In this document: piece by piece, positions 13,340-55,080 of the stretch | Layout of the letters: each line of letters begins with the position of its first letter | Position numbering within the stretch: position 1 is the first letter of the stretch | NCBI GenBank assembly: GCA_013697245.1 | Contig: JACCXH010000049.1 | Span: 248,001-312,000 of the forward strand | Source of the DNA: Bacteroidota bacterium | GTDB lineage: Bacteria; Bacteroidota; Bacteroidia; B-17B0; Aurantibacillaceae | Length of the DNA: 64,000 nucleotides | Reading direction: 5' to 3' | Program-made: the position numbers and the translations under genes | The notes under the pieces: model-generated | Databases searched by the model: none | What the model saw: the letters and a program-made list of their open reading frames with translations, nothing else | What the model was told of the DNA's origin: nothing

Positions 13340-14674
13340 TTATTTTTTCTTTTCTTTTTCCTGCTTTAACTTAAGTGCATTTTGCAGATCAATAAATGGC
13401 TGGTAATCTTTTATTTTAAAAAAATCAGAGTCGATATAAAGATGGTTATAATTATCAAAACCCAAATCAATAGCTTCCCGCAAATATTTTACTGCATTTT
13501 CGCCATCGCTTTTTAAACCATAAAAATTTGCAAAGCCATACAAACATCTATTCTTCTCTAAATTTGTTTCTGTGTTTTTTAATGAGGTTTTAAGACATTC
13601 AAGCCCTTTTTCAAATTGTCCTTCCCTGGCATATATTACTCCGCGATACAGCCAAAAAACATAATTATCCGGCTCTAATAAGATAAGTGTATCAATTAAC
13701 CCTGCAGCTTTTACTAACTGATTGCTTTGATAATATTCTTGCGCTGATTTAACTTTTTGGCTGATGCTGTTAGTTAGATCCATACAAGTGTCATTTAGCT
13801 TAATTGAAAAAGGAAATTCTTCGGATTGACAAGAGGTTTTAACGTCGCTTATATAACGTTGGTTACTTGTTTGTATATAGGCATTTTTCATAGAGTAAAA
13901 ACTGGTTGTTGCCTTGGGGCTATCTGCCCATGTAGGATCAAATGCAACCCAATCGTACTGAGGAAAATAAACCTCCACCCAGTTATGGTGCCCAATTGTT
14001 CCATTACTATTTGGGATCAAGCCTTTTACGATCCGTGCAGGAATTTTTTTTGCCCGGCACAAGGTTATCATTAATTCAGAATATTCAGTACAATCACCCT
14101 TGCCGTCTTTCAACGCTTGTTTAGCGCCCCTGTCTTGAAAATAAAAAATATGGTAATCCAAAACACTATCCACGTAATTAAAAATGTTCTTTACAATTTC
14201 TTCCCGATCATTTCCTTTTAAATTTTCTGCAACAGCTTTAATACTTTTAGAATTAGACCTAAAATTTTCTTCATCTTTTAAACAACTTAGCGTATCTAGA
14301 TCTTTATTATTTTTTACCGGATGTTTTTTTGCAGTTTTAAGATCATAAATTTTTATTTTAACTTTCATCGTTACTTCCAGCTTCACAGTATTTAATTCAA
14401 AAAAACTTTTATTTTTCCAATTAAGAAAATAGTCATTATTTTCTGTCTTAAAAACATTGAATGGGGCAACAGAGTATTTATATTCGGATATTTCCTGCTT
14501 GCCGGGACGGCTGAAAGGCACTAAAAGGTTATAACTACAGCGATTGATAAAATACTCCGGGTTGGGGCATTTTATCGTAAGACTTCGCTTTAAAATAAGG
14601 TCGCGCTGAGCTAAAGAATTAAGATCTAATAAAACAAGAAAAATAAATAAAACATATTTTTGAAAATATATCAT
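13340..14674 (-). CDS. Transglutaminase-like domain protein with TPR tail, secreted
   Basis: The product has 444 residues. The N-terminus is a signal peptide (MIYFQKYVLFIFLVLLDLNSLAQ). After a beta-rich region comes a transglutaminase-like (papain-fold) core with a full triad: Cys in GKGDCTEYSEL (about 194), His in GHHNWVEVYFP (about 229) and Asp in AFDPTWAD (about 246). TPR-like helices cover about 300-440 (SAQEYYQSNQLVKAAGLIDTL, YRGVIYAREGQFEKGLECL). Related proteins are thought to act as proteases or amidases in the periplasm, and the substrate is unknown. It ends 11 bp from the convergent OsmC gene and heads a run of minus-strand genes. Confidence 0.88.
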   Translation of the reverse strand: MIYFQKYVLFIFLVLLDLNSLAQRDLILKRSLTIKCPNPEYFINRCSYNLLVPFSRPGKQEISEYKYSVAPFNVFKTENNDYFLNWKNKSFFELNTVKLEVTMKVKIKIYDLKTAKKHPVKNNKDLDTLSCLKDEENFRSNSKSIKAVAENLKGNDREEIVKNIFNYVDSVLDYHIFYFQDRGAKQALKDGKGDCTEYSELMITLCRAKKIPARIVKGLIPNSNGTIGHHNWVEVYFPQYDWVAFDPTWADSPKATTSFYSMKNAYIQTSNQRYISDVKTSCQSEEFPFSIKLNDTCMDLTNSISQKVKSAQEYYQSNQLVKAAGLIDTLILLEPDNYVFWLYRGVIYAREGQFEKGLECLKTSLKNTETNLEKNRCLYGFANFYGLKSDGENAVKYLREAIDLGFDNYNHLYIDSDFFKIKDYQPFIDLQNALKLKQEKEKKK

Positions 14675-14701
14675 TTTTAAATAGCTAAAAATTTAATAAG
14701 G

Positions 14702-15040
14702 CTATTTAATATCGTCGGGGTTTAAAATTTTAAATGGAGTAGGTACCATTTCGCAAAAAACAATCTTAAGATCAAAGGCTTGTCCCATTTTAAGATCAGA
14801 TAATTTTAACTCGTAAGCTTTTGTAACAGAAGTGGCGTTTGAAACCACTTCCTTATCATTAATATAGATCTTTTGAATACCATTTGTTGCCTGATTTTCA
14901 AAAAGTAAATTTTTACCGTTATATTTTCCTTTAATAACTTTTGAAGCTACGATACAATTACTTTGCTGCGCTACACCACAAATACTGAAAGCTGTAAAAA
15001 ATGCGCCAAGAAGTAAAGCTTGTTTAAATTTATTTTTCAT
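14702..15040 (-). CDS. Small secreted protein of unknown function
   Basis: The product has 112 residues. A signal peptide is clear (MKNKFKQALLLGAFFTAFSICGVAQ). The mature part is ~87 residues with two Cys (SNCIVAS and IVFCEMVP) that could form a disulphide, and alternating beta-like segments. I do not recognise a family. It lies 27 bp upstream of the transglutaminase gene on the same strand, so the two may be co-transcribed. Confidence 0.75.
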   Translation of the reverse strand: MKNKFKQALLLGAFFTAFSICGVAQQSNCIVASKVIKGKYNGKNLLFENQATNGIQKIYINDKEVVSNATSVTKAYELKLSDLKMGQAFDLKIVFCEMVPTPFKILNPDDIK

Positions 15041-45365: not shown

Positions 45366-46391
45366 ATGAATGCAATTGATCTAAGAAGCGATACTGTTAC
45401 CAAGCCCTCAAAAGCCATGATGGAAGCCATGTTTAGTGCTGAAGTAGGCGATGATGTTTTTAAAGAAGATCCAACAATTATTGAATTGGAAAAATTCTCT
45501 GCTAATTTATTTGGTAAAGAAGCGGCTTTGTTTTGCCCAAGTGGCACTATGACCAATCAAATTGCTATTAAAGTACATACACAACCCGGAGATGAACTTA
45601 TTTGTGATGTAAATTCTCATATTTATAATTACGAAGGCGGTGGAATTTCTTTTAACTCCGGCGTACAAGCAAAATTGTTACCGGGAAATGAAGGGCGTTT
45701 ATCACCGGAGCTTATTGAACCTGCAATAAACGGTGATTTTGACTGGTTAACACGTACAAGCTTAGTATCCCTTGAAAATACCGTGAACAGGGCAGGAGGG
45801 AGCTATTATACTTTAGATCAAATAAAACCAATACATGCTTTTTGTCAAAAACATAATTTAAAATTACATTTGGATGGTGCGCGTATTTTTAACGCATTGG
45901 CAGAATCTAATGAAACACCAAAACAAATTGGCGAATATTTTGATTCTATTTCTATTTGCATGTCAAAAGGTTTGGGTGCACCAATTGGCTCGTTATTGTT
46001 AGGCGAAAAAGATTTTATTAGAAAAGCGCGCAGGATCCGAAAAATATTTGGCGGTGGCATGCGCCAGGCTGGAATATTAGCGGCTGCAGGGTTATATGCA
46101 TTAAAAAATAATGTTACCCGCTTAAAAGAAGATCACGCGCGTGCAAAAAAGTTAGGCGATGTATTAAATAAATTGGGTTATGTTGATTCGGTTTTACCGG
46201 TTTATACAAACATTGTGATCTTTCATTTAAAGCCTGAAAAAATAACGGGCGATGCCTTCGAGAAAAAATTATCTGAGAACAACATAAAAATTTCGGCTTT
46301 TGGAAAACATACCATTCGTATGGTAACACATTTAGATTTTGATGATACGATGTTGGAGAAAACGATAGGGGTGTTGAAGAAAATTGAATAG
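45366..46391 (+). CDS. ltaE: Low-specificity threonine aldolase
   Basis: The product has 341 residues, usual length. It opens with the family mark IDLRSDTVTKPSKAMMEAM and EVGDDVFKEDPTI. The PLP lysine is in SMSKGLGAPIGS (about 203) and the PLP-binding segment SGTMTNQIA is near residue 62. It splits threonine into glycine and acetaldehyde. It lies 3 bp after the E1 gene, so both are probably translated from one message; the link to 2-oxobutyrate/branched-chain metabolism is inference. Confidence 0.94.
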   Translation: MNAIDLRSDTVTKPSKAMMEAMFSAEVGDDVFKEDPTIIELEKFSANLFGKEAALFCPSGTMTNQIAIKVHTQPGDELICDVNSHIYNYEGGGISFNSGVQAKLLPGNEGRLSPELIEPAINGDFDWLTRTSLVSLENTVNRAGGSYYTLDQIKPIHAFCQKHNLKLHLDGARIFNALAESNETPKQIGEYFDSISICMSKGLGAPIGSLLLGEKDFIRKARRIRKIFGGGMRQAGILAAAGLYALKNNVTRLKEDHARAKKLGDVLNKLGYVDSVLPVYTNIVIFHLKPEKITGDAFEKKLSENNIKISAFGKHTIRMVTHLDFDDTMLEKTIGVLKKIE

Positions 46392-46403
46392 TTGAGTGTA
46401 TTC

Positions 46404-46767
46404 ATGTTTAATAAACAAGTGAAGCAATTGTTTATTAATACTCCTTATTTGTGGTTTAGGGATTATTTATTATTTAAACCGAAAAGTAGATCTGAATTCA
46501 TCAGCACTTTCTTACTGTTTAAATAATGATAGCATAGAAATTAACACATTAAATTCAGCTTATTATATAAAAATCGACGATTCAGATTACAGTAAAAATT
46601 TGGATACTTTAAATATTAGATTAGTTCATATTATGGTTGGCGCTTTTTTGTATGGCGATTTAACCGGACAAATAATTATTGCAAAAAATAAAGAACTAAA
46701 ATATATCATTGCAAATAATGATTTAATATGCATTGATTCTATAAAGCAATGCTATATTCCAAACTAA
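46404..46767 (+). pseudogene. Frameshifted small membrane-anchored or secreted protein gene
   Basis: ATG 46404 starts MFNKQVKQ. In the next frame, from about 46424, a hydrophobic segment LLILLICGLGIIYYLN runs without interruption into a soluble domain (CLNNDSIEINTLNSAYYIKIDDSDY..., ending DSIKQCYIPN) to TAA 46765-46767. That second frame has no usable start, so one base gained or lost near 46415-46425 explains both. The intact product would be ~118 residues with an N-terminal signal or anchor. Family unknown. It sits just after ltaE and before the repeat array. Confidence 0.5.
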
Positions 46768-46790
46768 AACAATTGAACCTTCAATTAAAC

Positions 46791-47746
46791 TAATATTTCG
46801 TCCCTATGGGACTTTCTCTATCTTCTCTTCCTTGTTCCTATAGATATTTTGTCCCTACGGGACAAATTTGAATAATTAAATTTTTCTTTGAATACTAAAA
46901 TTATAGCCATTAGGGGTAATAAATCAATTTATTTTCCCTGTAATTAAATTTAAATCTCTTTAGGTATTAAATGTTTAGAAAACATAACAATGTAAAACAA
47001 AGTTGGGAAGATATCTTTCGTGTTAAATAATATTTCAGCCCTATGGGACTTTCTCCATCTTCTCTTCCTTGTTCCTATAGATATTTTGTCCCCACGGGAC
47101 AAGTTTGAATAATTAAATTTTTCTTTGAATACTAAAATCATAGCCATTAGGTATTACAAATCCATTTATTTTTGATTCATAATTTAAAAATCCCTTTAGG
47201 GATTAAATATTTTAGAAAATAAATAGTATCATAACAAAATCCTGTAGGGAAGATATCTTTCGTGTTAAATAATATTTCGGCCCTATGGGACTTTCTCTAT
47301 CTTAACTTCCTTGTTCCTATAGATATTTTATCTCTAGGGGACAAATTTGAATAATTAAATTTTTCTTTGAATACTAAAATTATAGCCATTAGGTATTACA
47401 AATCCATTTATTTTTGATTCATAATTTAAAAATCCCTTTAGGGATCAAATATTTTAGAAAATAAATAGTATCATAACAAAATCCTGTAGGGAAGATATCT
47501 TTCGTGTTAAATAATATTTCGTACCTATGGGACTTTCTCTATCTTCTCTTCATTATTCCTATAGATATTTTGTCCCTACGGGACAAGTTTGAATAATTAA
47601 ATTTTTCTTCGATATACTACAAATCATAGCCATTAGGTATTACAAATCCATTTATTTTTGATTCATAATTTAAAAATCCCTTTAGGGATTAAATATTTTA
47701 GAAAATATAATAATATCAAAACAAAGTCCCGTAGGGACGAAACAAA
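46791..47746. repeat. Tandem array of four ~240-bp palindrome-rich units
   Basis: Units begin (TAATATTTC) at 46791, 47028, 47270 and 47512, spaced 237, 242 and 242 bp. Each holds GTCCC-type hairpins: a left one near the start (TTTCGTCCCTATGGGACTTT at 46796-46815 in unit 1), TTTGTCCC-TAC-GGGACAAA about 50 bp further, AATCCC-TTTA-GGGATT in the middle, and a right-end hairpin. The right end of unit 4 (AAAGTCCCGTAGGGACGAAA, 47723-47742) is the reverse complement of the unit 1 left end with one difference. The array has no reading frame of its own and ends 4 bp before the transposase ATG. Confidence 0.88.
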
Positions 47747-48208
47747 ATGGCAAACACCTATTCACAAATATATCTTCAATTTGTTTTCTCTGTAAAATAT
47801 AGAGAAGGAATGATTCATAAAGATTGGAAGGATGAATTATATAAATATATAACAGGGATAGTTACAAATAATGGTCACAAAATGATCTGTATTAATGGCA
47901 TGCCTGATCATATCCATATTTTGATAGGCATAAAACCATCACAATCAATTTCAGACTTATTAAAAGATATAAAAGCTAATTCCTCGAGATGGATCAATGA
48001 AAAACGTTATTCAAAAGGTAAATTTGAATGGCAGGAAGGCTATGGAGCTTTTTCATATAGTCAGTCACAACTTAAAGATGTGATTACTTATATAGAAACC
48101 CAAGAAGAACACCATAAAAAAAGAACCTTTAAGGAAGAATATATTGATTTCCTGGAAAAATTTGAAGTTAAGTTCGATGAGAAATTTATTTTTAAAGAAT
48201 TGGCTTAA
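47747..48208 (+). CDS. tnpA: IS200/IS605-family TnpA (HUH Y1 transposase)
   Basis: The product has 153 residues, the length of IS200-type TnpA. The HUH motif is HIH in MPDHIHILIG (about 58-60) and the catalytic Tyr is probably in ITYIETQEEHHKK. YSQIYLQFVFSVKYREGMI at the N-terminus and GYGAFSYSQS are typical of the Bacteroidota branch. It nicks and joins single-stranded DNA at hairpins. No tnpB/IscB partner is present. Immediately upstream lies the array of GTCCC/GGGAC hairpins, which are probably its recognition structures. No matching hairpin is seen downstream of its stop. Confidence 0.93.
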   Translation: MANTYSQIYLQFVFSVKYREGMIHKDWKDELYKYITGIVTNNGHKMICINGMPDHIHILIGIKPSQSISDLLKDIKANSSRWINEKRYSKGKFEWQEGYGAFSYSQSQLKDVITYIETQEEHHKKRTFKEEYIDFLEKFEVKFDEKFIFKELA

Positions 48209-48249: not shown

Positions 48250-48729
48250 TCAAAATACCATTTTTATCTCATCCATCTTATCCTGAAACTCAAATACCTG
48301 GCCGGCTTGCATGGTTTTAATATTTTCATAAAAAGGAGACCTTGAAGAAACTACCATTACTTTTTTATCTTCAATTTTTAACGGCCCTAAGCCAATGGCA
48401 ACAAAAAAAAGTAAACCCGATAATTCAAAAACAGAACCTATCTTAATTGTATCTTCTATTTTACTTATGTCTATTTTTTCTAAATAATTTAATTCCTGTT
48501 CGGCTTCCATTAATTGTTTGGCATTCATATCACTATCCAATTGACCCATAGCTCGCGAAATTTCGTATTTATCACCTGCAGTACTTTTATCATTACTGTT
48601 AGCGTTATCCTGCGCTTGCGCTATAGCAGCTTTAGCGTTAGTTATACGTTGATTGATCTGTTTAATGCACTCAGATTTGATCAGTTTCTTAAAGGCGATC
48701 TTATCGGCCAATGATTTTAATTCGTTCAT
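48250..48729 (-). CDS. GreA/GreB-like transcription elongation factor paralogue
   Basis: The product has 159 residues. An N-terminal coiled coil (~1-85) includes NDKSTAGDKYEISRAMGQLD, the loop region of Gre-like factors, and a small C-terminal beta domain (FFVAIGLGPLKI, VVSSRSPFYENI) replaces the FKBP-like domain. Members of this Bacteroidota group are often misnamed 3-oxoacyl-ACP synthase; there is no thiolase-fold or catalytic Cys here. It may bind RNA polymerase. It is 9 bp after the PorP/SprF gene on the same strand. Confidence 0.75.
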   Translation of the reverse strand: MNELKSLADKIAFKKLIKSECIKQINQRITNAKAAIAQAQDNANSNDKSTAGDKYEISRAMGQLDSDMNAKQLMEAEQELNYLEKIDISKIEDTIKIGSVFELSGLLFFVAIGLGPLKIEDKKVMVVSSRSPFYENIKTMQAGQVFEFQDKMDEIKMVF

Positions 48730-48738
48730 AAATAATTT

Positions 48739-49740
48739 TTAGAATTTTGGACAACTCACCAGTACTTTTTTGTTGCGTTTACGTTTAGAAGCAATTTCAT
48801 ATACCAAAGATACTTCATGAGAACCTTGCGTATTATTTATTCTTAAACTTGAAATCGTAGCATCATAACTATAACCGATTCTGAAATTTTTATCAGGCAC
48901 TTCCAAGCCAACTAACAAAGCAAGGCTCTCTCTATTTGGATAACCCAATTTATAATGTTTAAATGGCAAACCACGGTACCACAAACCAACATTAATGAAC
49001 GATTTAAAATAATAAGCGCCAATATCCAGCTGACTATATTTTTGTTCACTTCTGATATTAAAACTTGCACTCACAAATTCTTCCAGCTTTGTTTTACCCG
49101 AACCTCTTGCGCTTATTATAAAACGGTAACCGCCATGTAAACTGCTGGAGATAGGCAATGGCTCTATATTACCAACCATACTTGCGTTGGGTTGATTAAC
49201 GTGTTTTGCGGCAAAGCCCAACCAGTAATTGGTAGAATTAAACAAACCACCAATACCCATATCAAAAAAACTGATCTTATCTGCCGCTAGAGCGTCCTGA
49301 GAAATAGAAGCGCCAGTAATGAACTGATCATTAAATATCAAACGTGTTTGGTCTATTTTTTTCTGGTTCATTACTAAAGAAACGCCGCCTCTTGCTTCAG
49401 AGTATTTTCCAAGTTTTACACGGTAAGCATAATTTACACCGCCCATGGTTGTTACCAAATTAGAAGTCCCCGCACGATCCTGCAATACAAATGCGCCAAT
49501 ACCACTATTTACACTACTTAAATTTAAATCATAAGAAGCCATATAAGTACTGTATGCTGTTTTTACTCCTGGCCATTGATTGCGGTAGTTTGCAGCAAAA
49601 CGATGCTCATAGGTTAAACCTGTAAAAGCCGGATTTAAAAACATAGGTGCTGCATAAAACTGAGTGAATTGCGGGTCTTGTGCAAATGCACCAAATCCGG
49701 CAACAAAAAATAAAAATATGGTACAAAGTTTTTTAAGCAT
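48739..49740 (-). CDS. PorP/SprF family type IX secretion system membrane protein
   Basis: The product has 333 residues with a signal peptide (MLKKLCTIFLFFVAGFGAFAQ) followed immediately by the PorP/SprF mark DPQFTQFYAAPMFLNPAFTGL. The rest is beta-barrel-like (RFAANYRNQWPGV, GIGAFVLQDRAG, YRFIISARG, FRIGYSYDATIS). SprF-type proteins are needed for export or anchoring of a partner adhesin with a type B sorting domain. The partner here is the PKD protein two genes upstream. The start overlaps the stop of the preceding gene by 1 bp (TAATG). Confidence 0.94.
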   Translation of the reverse strand: MLKKLCTIFLFFVAGFGAFAQDPQFTQFYAAPMFLNPAFTGLTYEHRFAANYRNQWPGVKTAYSTYMASYDLNLSSVNSGIGAFVLQDRAGTSNLVTTMGGVNYAYRVKLGKYSEARGGVSLVMNQKKIDQTRLIFNDQFITGASISQDALAADKISFFDMGIGGLFNSTNYWLGFAAKHVNQPNASMVGNIEPLPISSSLHGGYRFIISARGSGKTKLEEFVSASFNIRSEQKYSQLDIGAYYFKSFINVGLWYRGLPFKHYKLGYPNRESLALLVGLEVPDKNFRIGYSYDATISSLRINNTQGSHEVSLVYEIASKRKRNKKVLVSCPKF

Positions 49741-51305
49741 TATTTTTTTATAATTTTAAATTCAAGGTCCTTATCTGTTTTTTCAAAAGCTAAAGGATCA
49801 AGGTCAACAACTAAAGTGGTATAACCCTCCGATTCTACAATTGCTTTATAGGATTTTAAAGGGTTCATTACTAAAATAAATTTTCCGGTTTTAGGATTCG
49901 AATTATAAGTTCCATTAACGACATTCCCTTCATTATCCAATAAAGTTATTTTTACTTTGGCGGGCATATCATCTTTAAAGGCCATCCCATGCTTCACTTT
50001 CAGATCATTATCTCCAAAACGTGTATCAATTTGGTAAATATCAAGGTTACCAATAGTTTCTTCTTTTAAGGATGAATAATACCCACGTTGTCCATCCACA
50101 CTTAATACAAAAAAAATGTCGTTACCAACATTATTTATAGGGTAACCTAAATTTTGTGCTTTCGAGAATTGGTTGCTTTCAGGATCAAAAACACTTTTAA
50201 AAACATCGTAATTACCCATGGTGTTATGTCCTTTACTGCTAAAATATAAGGTCACATTATCAGGGTGAAGAAAAGGGCTATCCTCATCGTAAAGTGTATT
50301 AATGCTTGGCCCAAGGTTAAATGGCAAAGCCCATCGGCCGTTAGGTAATTTTTTTATACGGTAAATATCTTTTCCGCCATAACCTCCCGGGCGATCGCTG
50401 CTAAAATACATTTGGCTGGTATCATTACTAAAGCAAGCGCTGGTTTCAATAAATTGAGAATTAATTTCTTTTGCCATTTTTTGCAATGGCTCCCATTTAT
50501 TATCGCTACCCAATTTTGTAATAAAAAGATCGCCCGTAACCTGATCCGGCGAGGTTCTGAAAACGATCATGCTTTGCCCATCAGGACTAATGGCCACGCA
50601 GGCATCATTGGTTTCAGAATTAATAGGTGCTTTTACATTTTCTGCTTTTGTCCATTTCCCTTTTTCTTTAGTTGAAACATAAACATCTTCATAAAAATTA
50701 CCATAGGCATCTTTTTTATTATTCGAGCTACCTTCTCTTCTTGAAGTAAAATAAAGTGTGTTCTCATCCGGTACAATTACCGGAACATAATCAGCATAAA
50801 CAGAATTAATTTCCGGACCCATATTATTGATAATAGAGCGGTGTGGCTTATTAATAAGCATGCTCGCCGATTTACAAATGTCTATTAAATAATTTGTCTC
50901 TTCAATGGTGTGCAAACGTTTCTTCGTGCTTTCTTTATTATAATCGGTTAATAATTGAATAGCTTCTTCAAAATTCTTTTGCAGATGTTTTACTTTAGCC
51001 AGATAATATTTTGCATCAATTAATTTTGAAGCAGTTAAGCTTGCTAAAAAGAACTGCGAACTATCCAAATTATAATTTAATTTAAAGAAAGAGATGGTAC
51101 TATTTACACCTGCTTTTTCGTTCTTTGGTTCAAGGATCAAAACCTGCCTGTAACTATTCCAGGCCCTTAAATGATCTTCAATATCAAAACTTAACTGGGC
51201 TTCTTTTAACAATTCTTTTACTTGCTTTTTATTTTCTTTGGTTTGAGCAAATACTCCAAACCCGCAAAAAATCAAACAAAATAAAATACACTTCTTCTTC
51301 AACAT
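49740..51305 (-). CDS. TPR/PD40 beta-propeller protein (PorE-like without OmpA domain)
   Basis: The product has 521 residues. Signal peptide (MLKKKCILFCLIFCGFGVFAQ), TPR-like helices ~20-150, WD40-like PD40 propeller ~165-430 (ADYVPVIVPDENTLYFTSRREG, NDACVAISPDGQSMIVFRT, CFSNDTSQMYFSSDRPGGYGGKDIY, SPFLHPDNVTLYFSSKG), then a carboxypeptidase-regulatory-like domain ~440-521. This matches the first three domains of T9SS protein PorE; the C-terminal peptidoglycan-binding OmpA domain is absent. It sits between the PKD adhesin and PorP/SprF genes, with 4-bp and 1-bp junctions, so the three form a translationally coupled cassette. Confidence 0.9.
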   Translation of the reverse strand: MLKKKCILFCLIFCGFGVFAQTKENKKQVKELLKEAQLSFDIEDHLRAWNSYRQVLILEPKNEKAGVNSTISFFKLNYNLDSSQFFLASLTASKLIDAKYYLAKVKHLQKNFEEAIQLLTDYNKESTKKRLHTIEETNYLIDICKSASMLINKPHRSIINNMGPEINSVYADYVPVIVPDENTLYFTSRREGSSNNKKDAYGNFYEDVYVSTKEKGKWTKAENVKAPINSETNDACVAISPDGQSMIVFRTSPDQVTGDLFITKLGSDNKWEPLQKMAKEINSQFIETSACFSNDTSQMYFSSDRPGGYGGKDIYRIKKLPNGRWALPFNLGPSINTLYDEDSPFLHPDNVTLYFSSKGHNTMGNYDVFKSVFDPESNQFSKAQNLGYPINNVGNDIFFVLSVDGQRGYYSSLKEETIGNLDIYQIDTRFGDNDLKVKHGMAFKDDMPAKVKITLLDNEGNVVNGTYNSNPKTGKFILVMNPLKSYKAIVESEGYTTLVVDLDPLAFEKTDKDLEFKIIKK

Positions 51306-51309
51306 AAAA

Positions 51310-54300
51310 TTATTTTAATAATAACACATCGCCGGTTTTATTAAAGGTTTTTCCATCAATAAACGTGGCGGTAATTTTCCATACGTAAACATCTTGCGTA
51401 CAAATTTTCCCTTTATAATAACCATCCCATCCTTCAGACGGGTTTTTGGTCTCAAATAATAATTCGCCCCAACGCGAAAAAATACTTAGTAAATATTTAT
51501 CTACCCCTCTAATATTCGGATGAAAAACATCGTTACTCTTATCCTGCGGATCAAAGGCGCTTCCCGGCGACCCACCGCCATTGGGTGTAAAGGCATTTGG
51601 TACCTGCACAAAAGTTTCTTCCAACGCAATAATTTTCGACGATAGATCAAACGTATCTCTGCAACCTTTATTACTGGTTGCAATTAATATTATTTGATAT
51701 TCACCCGGCTTAACATACATATGCGAAGGCTCAAAACTTGTTTCAGTTCCACCGTCACCAAAATTCCATTGATAAGAAACTGCGCCGGTAGATAAATTAT
51801 AACATTGCGTTGCCTGGTTGGGGACGAACACCGTTAAAGGATCGGCCTTAAAAAAAGCAGAAGGTTTTGGAAAGACCTTGATCTTGCGTGTCGTTGTATC
51901 AGGGCAACCATAACTGTCTTTCGCAATTAACTGCACAGTAAATGTTTTATTTACTGATGAAACGTTAATAAACGTATTACTTACGCTGCCTGTAGAGGCT
52001 GTATTTCCATCACCATAGGTCCATTGATATTGCGCAACGCCTACAATAGGAGGGAAGAATACTTTTAATGGTGTGCAACCACTATCGGGCAATGCGGAAA
52101 TAAAAAATACAGGTTTTGGATGAACAACTATAGGCACTTTTAACGTATCCTTACAACCGTTACTATTGGTTGAGACCAAAGTAAGCGTATAGGTTTGATT
52201 CGTTGGGAAAATGTTTGTATATACCTGTGAAGGACTTGTTAACGTAGACGTTTGAGCATTTCCAAAATTCCAATTATAAGAGGAAGCACCTAATGAAGTA
52301 TTTGTAAACGTTAACTTGGCGGGAGAACAGGCCGGCGTATCTACTAACATAGCAGACTTTGGTCTTGCAAATAAGCTTATTGGTTTAACTATCGAGTCGT
52401 AACAATTATTTGCTGTACCAACAACCAATTTAACACTGTATGTAATTGGACCGCCACCGGGCGTATTTGTAAAGGTTTCAACAGGGTTTGTTGTTATAGA
52501 CGCATTACCATTATTGAACAGCCAGGCGCTACTGTTATTACCGGTACTTGTATTGGAAAAATTGACCGGTAAAGGCGAACAGCCCGAAACAGGCGAAGCA
52601 TTAAAATTAGGAACAGGTTTTGGGAATACGATAGGATTTCCAAAACTAGAGTCAACACAGCCGAAACCGTTACTCGCAACTAATCTAACAGTAAATGTTT
52701 TTGTAGCAGTTGTAGTATTTGTGAACACATGCAAAGATGGAGCGGTGGACGTTATAACAGAAGGAGAACCATCACCATAGGTCCATGTATAGGAAATTAC
52801 ACCCGGTACCGATGGAAACGTAACAGTTAATGGCGTACAACCGCTGGCAGGTATCATAGTAAATGAAGTAAATGTTTTTGGAAAGATCTGTATCGTATGA
52901 AGGGATGTATCTGTACAACCTAAACTATTTGTAACAACCAGAGTTATTGTATTGGTCATTAATAAAAAAGAATTATTAGTGTAAGTGTGGCTCGGATTTA
53001 AAATTACAGAAGAAGTATTATCGCCAAAGCTCCATGAATAAGTAGTTGCACCAATAGAGTTATTGGTAAATGTTACCGGTAAAGGAGAACAACCCGGAGT
53101 TAAATTTCCTGTAAAAGAAGAAACAGGTCTAGGTAAAATAGAAACTGTTTTTTTGATCGTATCACTGCAGCCCAAGCCTGTACCGGCAATAAGGCTTACC
53201 GTATAATTTACGATGGCTTGTGTTGTATTACTAAACGTAAAATTAGTGTTTATAGCATTTGATGTTGCAGTTGGTATAACTCCAAAATTCCATACATAAT
53301 TTGTTCCGTTTAATGTGGTGTTTGAAAATGTTACCGGAAATGGCGGGCAACCAACTGTTGGGGTAAAAACAAAGTTGGCTGTAGGTTTAATGTTTGCAAT
53401 AACTGTATTAGTTGTTGAATCTTTACAAAAAGCAGTTGATACAATTAATTTTACGGTATAAGTTGCAGGAGCAGTATAGGTATGCGGCGGATTTTGAATA
53501 TTTGAATTTGGAGAACTGTCACCAAAATTCCAGGTATAACTATTTATAGCATTGGTACCTGTAACTGTTGATGTACTTGAAAAACTGGTGATAGAGCCTA
53601 CACAGGTTGAAATAGGCGTGAAGCTTGCAACAGGGTTTGAATGAACAACAATGGATGCTGTTTTGGTATTAACACAACCGTTTGCACCTGTTACTGAAAG
53701 CGAAACAACATAAGCTCCCGGAGCGCCATAATTTTGATTTGGTGGGATCTGCAATGTACTTGTATTTGAATTACCAAAATTCCAGCTCCATGAAATTGCT
53801 CCAATAGACGATTCGTTAAAGACCACATTATTTAAAACATTACAACCTACAGTTGGTGTATTTGCAAAATTGGCAGTTGGTGAAGGTAAAATAGTGACGA
53901 CGACCTGAGCGGTGGATGTACAAGCGGCCCCTGCACCGGGAATAAATGCGGCTAACTGAACAGTATAGGTACCGGGTGTTGTATAAATATGCGTCTGTGG
54001 CCCTATTCCCAAATTCACAAAACCGCCACCGGTTCCAAAATCCCATAAGTAAGAAAATCCGGTTGGACTTGCATTTGTAAACGTAAGCGGGGCGTTTTGA
54101 CAAAGCGGTCCTGGTGGTGCCACCACGCTGGCTGTTGGAGGATTTACGATCTGAACATTAATGATAGCAGTATCAACCCCACATAAATTACTATCACGCA
54201 ACATAACTGAATAAGTTCCTACTGCAGGATATGCGATAGAAATAGGAGTGGTTGGCGGCCAGGGATTCCAGTTAATAATGGAATCATGATTTATTGGCGG

Positions 54301-55080
54301 CCAGTACATTCCGAAGTTCCACCATTCCTGACGTTGAAAGGTATTACCTTGCGCTAAACAATTACGGTTGGTGGTGTTTGTAAATGTAAAAACATTGTCG
54401 GGCCAGCAGCGAATCAATTTGTCCGGCGTTATTGCAGCATTATCAACATCATAAATTTGTATTGGGTTAAAATTAGCGATAGTTGGATTGCCGAAGCTAC
54501 AATAATTGAGCGCCTGCAGGGTTATCTGTGTTTGACAATTGACCGTATTCTTGAGATAGGTATGCGTAATTGTTTGCCCGCCATTGGTATAAGTAAAAGC
54601 AACTGTCGGCGATCCGTCACCAAAATTCCAAACAAAATGGGTTGTAGGGCTAACATCCGTACTTGAATTGGTGAACGATAAAGTTTTAGGTGCGCAGGCC
54701 TGCGTAACGCCACCAATTGGAATTTGTATAGAAGCATTAACAGGCTTCTCCATGACAACTATTCCGGTTAATGTACAGTTTAATGCAGGAATAATTAAGG
54801 TAACAACAAAGGTATCAACCGTAGAGGTATAAGCATGTGTAAGAATGGTATTAGCAGCATAAGAAGCGCCGGGCACTGTTGGACTGCCATCTCCATAATT
54901 GATGGTATATGCTCCCCAGCTAGCATTGGATTGAAAATTTAAATTATACGAAGTGCCTGTACAACTAATAAAGTAAGGATGCGGAGAAAGATTACCTAAA
55001 TAATCGTACACCTGTGGGCATTGCGCCTTGGCAGAAAAGGAAATGATTAGAGATAATAAAAAAAGTAAGCGTTTAATCAT
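51310..55080 (-). CDS. PKD-repeat surface protein with gliding-motility-type (type B) sorting domain
   Basis: The product has 1256 residues. Signal peptide (MIKRLLFLLSLIISFSAKAQ), then about 13 PKD-like repeats of ~80 residues, each with a W-x-FGDG-type core (FVWNFGDGSP, YLWDFGTGGG, WSWNFGNSN, YTWNFGDSSP, YSWSFGDNTS, YQWTYGDGNT, YQWNFGDGGT). The last ~95 residues are the CHU_C/gliding-motility-associated domain (VQVPNAFTPNGG, VFHPNIRGVDKYLLSIFSRWGELLFET, GWDGYYKGKICTQDVYVWKI). Such SprB-like proteins are exported by T9SS with a SprF partner and act as adhesins. It is the first gene of the three-gene cassette ending with PorP/SprF. Confidence 0.95.
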   Translation of the reverse strand: MIKRLLFLLSLIISFSAKAQCPQVYDYLGNLSPHPYFISCTGTSYNLNFQSNASWGAYTINYGDGSPTVPGASYAANTILTHAYTSTVDTFVVTLIIPALNCTLTGIVVMEKPVNASIQIPIGGVTQACAPKTLSFTNSSTDVSPTTHFVWNFGDGSPTVAFTYTNGGQTITHTYLKNTVNCQTQITLQALNYCSFGNPTIANFNPIQIYDVDNAAITPDKLIRCWPDNVFTFTNTTNRNCLAQGNTFQRQEWWNFGMYWPPINHDSIINWNPWPPTTPISIAYPAVGTYSVMLRDSNLCGVDTAIINVQIVNPPTASVVAPPGPLCQNAPLTFTNASPTGFSYLWDFGTGGGFVNLGIGPQTHIYTTPGTYTVQLAAFIPGAGAACTSTAQVVVTILPSPTANFANTPTVGCNVLNNVVFNESSIGAISWSWNFGNSNTSTLQIPPNQNYGAPGAYVVSLSVTGANGCVNTKTASIVVHSNPVASFTPISTCVGSITSFSSTSTVTGTNAINSYTWNFGDSSPNSNIQNPPHTYTAPATYTVKLIVSTAFCKDSTTNTVIANIKPTANFVFTPTVGCPPFPVTFSNTTLNGTNYVWNFGVIPTATSNAINTNFTFSNTTQAIVNYTVSLIAGTGLGCSDTIKKTVSILPRPVSSFTGNLTPGCSPLPVTFTNNSIGATTYSWSFGDNTSSVILNPSHTYTNNSFLLMTNTITLVVTNSLGCTDTSLHTIQIFPKTFTSFTMIPASGCTPLTVTFPSVPGVISYTWTYGDGSPSVITSTAPSLHVFTNTTTATKTFTVRLVASNGFGCVDSSFGNPIVFPKPVPNFNASPVSGCSPLPVNFSNTSTGNNSSAWLFNNGNASITTNPVETFTNTPGGGPITYSVKLVVGTANNCYDSIVKPISLFARPKSAMLVDTPACSPAKLTFTNTSLGASSYNWNFGNAQTSTLTSPSQVYTNIFPTNQTYTLTLVSTNSNGCKDTLKVPIVVHPKPVFFISALPDSGCTPLKVFFPPIVGVAQYQWTYGDGNTASTGSVSNTFINVSSVNKTFTVQLIAKDSYGCPDTTTRKIKVFPKPSAFFKADPLTVFVPNQATQCYNLSTGAVSYQWNFGDGGTETSFEPSHMYVKPGEYQIILIATSNKGCRDTFDLSSKIIALEETFVQVPNAFTPNGGGSPGSAFDPQDKSNDVFHPNIRGVDKYLLSIFSRWGELLFETKNPSEGWDGYYKGKICTQDVYVWKITATFIDGKTFNKTGDVLLLK

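Follow-up and report, generated by a model that had tools for sequence, protein, structure and literature searches.

REPs and REPINs with their RAYT partners (TnpA-REP, TnpA_Y1 class 2) are short, inverted hairpin pairs that are intergenic, dispersed and non-autonomous and are tied to a low-copy cognate Y1/HUH enzyme; one genome can hold several such enzyme/repeat pairs. Pseudomonas fluorescens SBW25 has been described to carry REPINs that are clustered in tandem together with their flanks, in some cases beside RAYTs (PMC3116915), and BIMEs are reported to be often tandem (PMC8266576). The locus analyzed here lies in a stretch of 64,000 nucleotides (hereafter, the window) from a genome of a Bacteroidota bacterium (GCA_013697245.1, contig JACCXH010000049.1; G000 below). 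It shares all these traits of REP/RAYT systems, including the tandem cluster beside the enzyme gene known in Pseudomonas (PMC3116915). Unlike a RAYT, the enzyme scores as IS200-type, and the outer hairpins lack the GTAG foot; also unlike REP/RAYT systems, at most ends a CTA box accompanies two hairpins spaced by about 50 bp, and copy numbers are low in the genomes counted.

The enzyme resembles TnpA of the IS200/IS605 elements (subclass 1.1; IS608 and ISDra2) in its predicted fold, HUH motif and position of the catalytic tyrosine, and in having small hairpins as presumed substrates; unlike IS608 and ISDra2, the genes here are syntenic and non-identical, the two-hairpin ends are inverted, and non-autonomous units outnumber tnpA. 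The dedicated classification of the family (Quentin et al. 2018, PMC6006769) describes a subclass 1.2, with the signature Y---Q--HH, the motifs DHxH and WQ, and low copy number, that is found mostly in Cyanobacteria and Bacteroidetes and generally lacks typical IS200 ends; the REP column of Table 1 in that paper reads ‘no’ for this subclass. The genes analyzed here agree with published subclass 1.2 in signature, DHxH, WQ, low copy number and occurrence in Bacteroidetes (PMC6006769), whereas, at variance with the ‘no’ for REPs given there, cognate hairpins are present at nearly all loci examined.

Other described repeat families are more distant. TIRYTs, as presented by Di Nocera et al. 2013 (PMC3733652), likewise combine a Y1 enzyme with flanking inverted repeats that form modest repeat families, but the enzymes belong to other subclasses (20 of the 26 TIRYT examples are subclass 2.1 according to PMC6006769), and no two-hairpin modules appear to be described for TIRYTs in PMC3733652. 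The CGTC-tagged REPs of the same paper are likewise palindromes present in Bacteroidetes, and their CGTC group is given there without a known transposase. This superfamily was considered for the CGTCCC in the hairpin and set aside because CGTC in that family is unpaired and precedes a stem of 8–9 bp, whereas GTC here is within the 5-bp stem (PMC3733652). RayT of Chryseobacterium was rejected as a counterpart: it is described as an abeS-linked gene, and no REPs appear to be described with it (PMC11194056). The open-access literature searched, which took in few subscription papers and no preprints, yielded no account of repeats linked to subclass 1.2.

Results

A tandem array of hairpin units upstream of tnpA

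Tandem Repeats Finder reported a single strong array in the 64 kb, at window positions 46785–47737 on the forward strand (period 242, 3.9 copies, 90% matches, score 1490); besides this array, the program listed just a 20-mer in 2 copies. A repeat search of the window found four copies, all in register. This bears out the preliminary description of the locus, made from the DNA letters and their open reading frames, which had four head-to-tail units of about 240 bp ending 4 bp before TnpA. Its statement that the left-end hairpin of unit 1 and the right-end hairpin of unit 4 are inverted copies was confirmed by a repeat-pair search: TTTCGTCCCTATGGGACTTT and AAAGTCCCGTAGGGACGAAA are 95% complementary (19 of 20), and the inverted right-end copy stops at 47742, 4 bp 5′ of the ATG at 47747.

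All four units (46793–47016, 47034–47258, 47276–47500 and 47518–47746) are on the forward strand and are built around two outer hairpins, A on the left and D on the right, and two inner ones, B and C. Hairpin A is intact in unit 1 (46800–46812, GTCCCTATGGGAC, with AATATTTC directly before it) and broken in units 2–4; D, the inverted copy of A, is intact in unit 4 (47726–47738, GTCCCGTAGGGAC, just 5′ of the tnpA start) and broken in units 1–3. The perfect pair is accordingly the outermost one only. The inner hairpins are intact in three units each: B in units 1 (46848–46866, about 51 bp from A), 2 (47086–47102) and 4 (47570–47586), being broken in unit 3, and C, with the stem ATCCC, in units 2 (47189–47204), 3 (47432–47445) and 4 (47675–47690, about 50 bp from D), being broken in unit 1. 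In the array scan (stem of at least 4 bp, at least three G+C pairs), the stems of 5 bp or more are those of A and B for unit 1, of B and C for unit 2, of C alone for unit 3, and of B, C and D for unit 4. The preliminary description was thus right about the presence of GTCCC/GGGAC hairpins but not about several of them in each unit, if intact ones are meant, because unit 3 retains C only. A CTA box precedes hairpin B (46838–46850 in unit 1, forward strand; the same word at 47075, 47317 and 47559), and its inverted counterpart, a TAG box, follows C (47691–47703 in unit 4, reverse strand; others at 46969, 47205 and 47447); CTATAGATATTTT before B and AAATATTTTAGAA (with one variant) after C each occur once per unit, in all four units.

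Of the 18 hairpins detected in the whole 64 kb with a stem of at least 5 bp and at least four G+C pairs, five fall in the approximately 1 kb of the array. When folded as single-stranded DNA, the left module has z = −4.21, with 0 of 200 shuffles as good, and the right module z = −2.62, with 4 of 200 as good. Between 46300 and 48300, there is no Rfam match above the gathering score; the four hits are all far below it, among them CRISPR-DR66 (25.9 bits, cut-off 45), U6 (20.6, cut-off 44) and Acido-Lenti-1 (17.4, cut-off 37), and a known RNA family or CRISPR was rejected on these scores.

Two flanking genes served as synteny markers, one of the beta-eliminating lyase family on the left (45366–46391, forward strand) and one without a Pfam match on the right (48250–48729, reverse strand). 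The AT-rich DNA that separates the lyase gene from the array (46399–46767), which may be a decayed remnant, is matched in a DNA search in the related genome G023 and not in G003, G009 or G032. Beside the cassette, on the reverse strand (48739–55080), Pfam matches identify a PorP/SprF-like type IX secretion gene, a PD40 protein and a 1256-aa PKD/CHU_C protein.

The tnpA enzyme

The tnpA gene (47747–48208, forward strand) is complete and encodes a 153-aa Y1/HUH enzyme of the TnpA_Y1 subclass 1.2 type, with DHIH, WQ and Y115...Q119..HH (YIETQEEHH). The protein matches Pfam Y1_Tnp with 104 bits and passes the cut-off of the NCBIfam IS200/IS605 transposase model NF033573 (80.1 bits against 55); with the REP-associated tyrosine transposase model NF047646, it scores 33.5 bits against a cut-off of 80 and therefore is not called a RAYT by that model. 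Sequence matches in PDB are to IS200/IS605-type TnpA (ISDra2, IS608 and others), and in a Foldseek search with a structure model (pLDDT 86.6), the predicted fold appears nearest to TnpA of ISDra2 and IS608 (2xqc, E 4.2e-10), with TnpA-REP 4er8 at rank 30. Residues H55, H57, Y115, Q119 and H123 are invariant in 21 aligned sequences, and Y...Q..HH is present in 73 of 77 related loci (among the best listed, from named genomes) and 29 of 29 from the phylum sample.

The 4.44-Mb genome contains three tnpA matches, with 100, 49 and 39% identity and no identical second copy, the low and divergent copy number that characterizes subclass 1.2; by motifs and phylum, the window enzyme can be provisionally assigned to this subclass. 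The tnpA cassette occupies one syntenic place in G000, G003, G009, G023 and G032, and in G012, G013, G031 and G037, only 46–147 bp separate the two flank matches, without the cassette. Among four orthologues, dN/dS is 0.03–0.11, with dS near or above 1; the gene is under purifying selection. The syntenic tnpA of G003 (locus L054, contig 1) has one in-frame TAG, though a unit with both ends lies upstream.

At the cut used, the 600 bp that follow the window tnpA contain no hairpin, the hairpins being upstream only. The second tnpA of G000 (49% identical; locus L002, contig 41, 1400–2150) is flanked by GCCCC, GCCTC and GTCCC hairpins, the downstream ones about 50 bp apart, making another enzyme/repeat pair in this genome. 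The third (39%; locus L003, contig 52, 1400–2500) lies between hairpins of the CGACCTTTAGGTCG type, which recur downstream.

Dispersed units and their anatomy

The word GTCCCTAYGGGAC occurs exactly 17 times in the G000 genome, compared to zero for the reversed control, and 13 of the 17 copies are outside the window array. Several dispersed copies are paired, inverted hairpins. The preliminary description had called for a count of copies elsewhere; besides these 13 exact copies of the word, there are units at further loci in the same genome and in eight congeneric ones. A survey of the genus covered 52 loci, of which 38, from nine genomes (G000 and the eight others), have a clear left/right pair; the other 14, which lack a clear partner end, form arrays or have several candidate ends, were dropped.

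The 38 paired units have a median length of 164.5 bp (range 81–584). Set in register, their ends read AATATTTCGTCCCTACGGGACTT; conservation of the T and A that immediately adjoin the search word is 91%. At 46 of 72 ends, an inner hairpin is centered 44–52 bp inside the outer one, whereas seven other windows of 8 bp yielded 0–4 of 72 each, and 26 of the 72 ends have none at this distance; in a slightly wider window, CTA stands just before the inner hairpin at 43 of 52 ends, against 0.19 expected from random 11-nt windows within units. In 35 of 36 dispersed units, the midpoint is outside open frames of 120 aa (two units adjacent to tnpA were left out of this count and of that of inner hairpins). 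The consensus of the 5′ foot at the outer ends is AATATTTC, and the GTAG tetranucleotide was not found at this foot in the 38 paired units. Two inverted palindromes forming a dispersed, intergenic unit tied to a Y1 enzyme are what defines a REPIN, and this is the arrangement observed. A mosaic of several hairpin types on contig 11 of G000 (14600–15000; locus L015, 1150–1560), a contig with no reported tnpA match, is possibly a relic of a lost tnpA family.

Presence and absence of units between relatives

Single units differ in presence between related genomes; some are specific to a lineage, and relatives have empty sites in their place. The unit on contig 57 of G000 is absent, with the flanks joined, from G003, G031, G013, G012, G032 and G009, and its site in G023 holds about 105 bp of other sequence without the unit. 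The unit on contig 62 of G031 is absent in G003 and G000; that on contig 69 of G031 is absent in G003 and G013 and also missing from G023, its site being taken by a different short sequence of 85 bp in G000 and by unrelated longer sequence in G009 and G012. No end of the respective unit was found, allowing up to 4 mismatches, at the contig-69 site in G009 and G012 or at the contig-57 site in G023. G003 and G031 are sisters in a tree of one flanking gene (bootstrap 69), which makes gain by G031 the preferred explanation of both G031 cases. G013 lacks two further units of G000, one on contig 41 and one on contig 33 (150.6 kb); at the contig 41 site, G003 has a short, different palindrome and no unit, and G031 has a unit. 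The unit on contig 44 of G032 is absent in G000. Target duplications were sought by eye in these alignments, which at this divergence show neither them nor the exact unit boundaries. As to the mobility of single units raised in the preliminary description, the presence/absence differences are observed directly, and insertions, putatively made by the enzyme, are deduced from the empty sites only. On contig 149 of G031, two units 14 kb apart (loci L133 and L134) have flanks whose counterparts in G023 (L118) and G032 (L138) form a single uninterrupted region; the units may mark the ends of a rearrangement.

Many other units occupy the same place in several species, so that many copies must be old; given also that the dispersed copies of G000 have diverged, movement appears to be slow or old. 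At such shared sites, the stems differ and the pairing is kept: one site has GTCCC/GGGAC in G023 and GTCTC/GAGAC in G032, and a further example is GACTCC/GGAGTC, shared by three genomes, versus GTCCC/GGGAC in G012 (paired changes read by eye, with no control count).

Co-occurrence of hairpins and tnpA in the genus

A tnpA match is present in 20 of 40 genomes of the genus. With at most one mismatch, the hairpin TTTCGTCCCTAYGGGACT is found in 10 of the 40, eight of them among the 20 genomes with tnpA and two among the 20 others (Fisher 0.065); its reversed control matched once, in G034. Taken over every genome of the genus that has tnpA, co-occurrence is weak. A tnpA at least 60% like that of the window goes with the hairpin in 8 of 8 genomes, versus 2 of 32 others (Fisher 5.9e-7), the 60% line having been drawn after the data were seen. 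The two exceptions, G012 with two matches and G013 with one, have the hairpin and no tnpA match, and the syntenic tnpA locus is empty in both. The preliminary description had held that units confined to this locus and unrelated to other TnpA copies, or occurring in genomes lacking such a TnpA, would speak against the partnership. For the most part, such counter-evidence did not turn up: the units are not confined, and the hairpin occurs in two of the 20 genomes that have no tnpA match.

A second, unrelated pair shows the same pattern. The hairpin CCACGACCTTTAGGTCGTGG, with at most one mismatch, occurs only in G000, G003, G025 and G031, that is, in 4 of 4 genomes with the third tnpA type (at 82% or above; the gene of G025 is cut by the contig end) and in 0 of 36 others.

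Cognate hairpins beside tnpA across Bacteroidota

A profile search with 21 relatives yielded at least 80 loci in named genomes, of which the best were listed; 3 of 80 were dropped for want of a long enough open frame, leaving 77. Sampled Bacteroidota genomes contain tnpA relatives in 167 of 395 cases at E 1e-15, and the signature was checked in the best 30 loci of this sample, 29 from other genomes and our own; the two sets may share genomes (there is one identical protein pair). A G+C-rich hairpin lies within 300 bp of tnpA at 70 of 77 loci among the best listed in named genomes and at 28 of 29 in the phylum sample. In the same two sets, hairpin density near tnpA is 5.67 and 5.52 per kb; within the gene itself it falls to 0.08 and 0.00, and 0.8–1.4 kb away the values are 0.65 and 0.74. 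Dinucleotide shuffles gave 0.19 hairpins per kb, against the 5.67 observed, and chance or low-complexity hairpins were rejected for this reason.

These hairpins are regularly spaced and mirrored. Neighboring hairpins are 46–56 bp apart in 80 of 139 cases (best named loci listed) and 28 of 47 (phylum sample), compared to 0 of the 7 spacings that arose in shuffles. Among 55 two-hairpin modules near tnpA, chosen as 46–57 bp apart, the spacing is 51.2 ± 2.2 bp; in the 5′ flank of the hairpin farther from tnpA, CTA stands at −13 to −11 (0.87, 0.91, 0.95), followed by AA and AT. The nearest upstream and downstream stems have the same five bases at 22 of 31 of the best named loci listed (shuffle mean 5.45, maximum 14) and at 14 of 17 in the phylum sample (shuffle mean 5.53, maximum 12). 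The loops are exact reverse complements at 15 of those 31 loci (shuffle mean 4.5) and identical at 1 of 31; in the phylum sample, the counts are 6 of 17 and 0 of 17.

Between loci, the stems vary (GTCCC, GCTCC, ACCCC, GCCCC and others), and the four common types require 12 changes on the tnpA tree versus 31–41 in 500 shuffles (75 rows, after 21 of 96 labelled rows with rare stems were left out; 109 proteins in all). Inheritance with neighboring DNA adds to the tree signal and could produce part of both the cognacy and this signal. Exact copies of two hairpin words were counted in 16 named genomes, picked from among the 80 loci above, most of which had 0–8 (controls, 0–1), and therefore dispersal is patchy rather than universal. 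High counts were 24 in Flavobacterium daemonense and 12, for GCTCC, in an Epilithonimonas in which the tnpA examined is accompanied by different stems; the hairpin words thus do not strictly follow the tnpA type seen, and such genomes may hold further tnpA types.

Growth of the array

The array units of G000 are 82–95% alike among themselves and 56–73% like those of other species, and units 1–3 share the same damaged right end and the same junction. The number of units before tnpA is one in G003 and G009, three in G023, four in G000 and about five in G032. Given the high similarity of the G000 units and the shared damaged end and junction, recent growth of the array fits ordinary tandem duplication beside tnpA. 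The preliminary description had seen in the tandem growth a sign that the enzyme copies or rolls out its own units; this interpretation was abandoned as unneeded, plain duplication being sufficient.

Discussion

The units are likely to be non-autonomous, REPIN-like mobile elements partnered with the adjacent stand-alone Y1/HUH enzyme of subclass 1.2. The REP/RAYT-like relationship with an IS200-type enzyme that the preliminary description had proposed is upheld by the dispersal of the units, the empty sites, the cognate hairpins found across the phylum and the tendency to co-occur with close tnpA relatives. The best reading is one of REP/RAYT-like working, with the qualification that the protein failed the RAYT profile and the hairpins lack the GTAG foot, and that this is not an ordinary IS200 element either.

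By analogy with IS200/IS605 TnpA and RAYT/TnpA-REP, a mechanism can be outlined. The typical end is a two-hairpin module, in which TATTTC-like bases precede the outer hairpin and a CTA box precedes the second one, about 50 bp inward, the two ends being inverted. The enzyme most likely would recognize the hairpins as single-stranded DNA, for example, at the replication fork, cut near them via Tyr115, and move or copy the unit into intergenic AT-rich sites. The fixed distance between the two hairpins would suit a dimer bound at one end, with one hairpin per subunit. The TnpA-REP of E. coli is reported to cut at a CT dinucleotide, and the CTA box holds the same CT; because the box is inside the element, it is not simply the insertion boundary and may rather be a guide or nick site.

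Among the alternatives, the one that fares best, improbable as we consider it, is that the hairpins are RNA-level elements, such as terminators, mRNA stabilizers or regulators of tnpA, that were duplicated and are not transposition ends. The position of hairpin D in the tnpA leader, just 5′ of the start codon, which is the same in G003, G009, G023 and G032, is compatible with such a role, and so is the location of nearly all dispersed units outside open frames, some of them, as judged by eye, beside terminator-like stretches; the stems that keep pairing through two-sided changes at shared loci fit any folded strand. Against a role in RNA stand the presence/absence differences between relatives with joined flanks, the mirrored modules with cognate stems on both sides of tnpA, the retention of the outer ends as inverted pairs and the lack of any Rfam family above the gathering score.

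We regard as slightly less probable still that the locus is an ordinary IS200/IS605 insertion sequence with MITE-like derivatives, that is, autonomous jumping copies with single-hairpin ends. Such an origin would agree with the passed NCBIfam IS200 cut-off and the predicted ISDra2 TnpA-like fold, as well as with non-autonomous units that differ between relatives. It is at odds with the two further tnpA relatives of the genome being divergent from the window gene (49 and 39%) and none identical, with the single syntenic locus of the gene in five genomes, with the 600 bp 3′ of tnpA that are free of hairpins at the cut used, and with inverted ends, most of which have two hairpins; neither near-identical mobile gene copies nor one hairpin per end was found. 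Purely local tandem duplication without a functional tie to tnpA, although the shared damaged junction and the high identity of the G000 units show that duplication enlarged the array, is highly improbable and contradicted as a full account by the arrays or single units at the same place before tnpA in G003, G009, G023 and G032 and by the presence of the hairpin in ten genomes, with clear unit pairs in nine.

Beyond the mobile-element reading of the units themselves, we see the scales as evenly poised on a broader proposition: subclass 1.2 TnpA would form an unrecognized partnership with hairpin elements throughout the phylum, parallel to that of REP and RAYT, in which a site of two hairpins about 51 nt apart plus CTA, rather than a single hairpin, is read by a dimer, and elements with such a site at both ends spread on single-stranded DNA, with stems co-diverging with the enzyme. 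The NCBI model names the window protein an IS200/IS605 transposase, and the dedicated classification assigns the subclass, as given in PMC6006769, neither REPs nor IS properties. If these enzymes were tied to cognate two-hairpin elements, they would gain a substrate, and a REP/RAYT-like partnership would be placed in the IS200 branch of the family as well. The role of stand-alone Y1 enzymes would then become directly testable in vitro with defined DNA.
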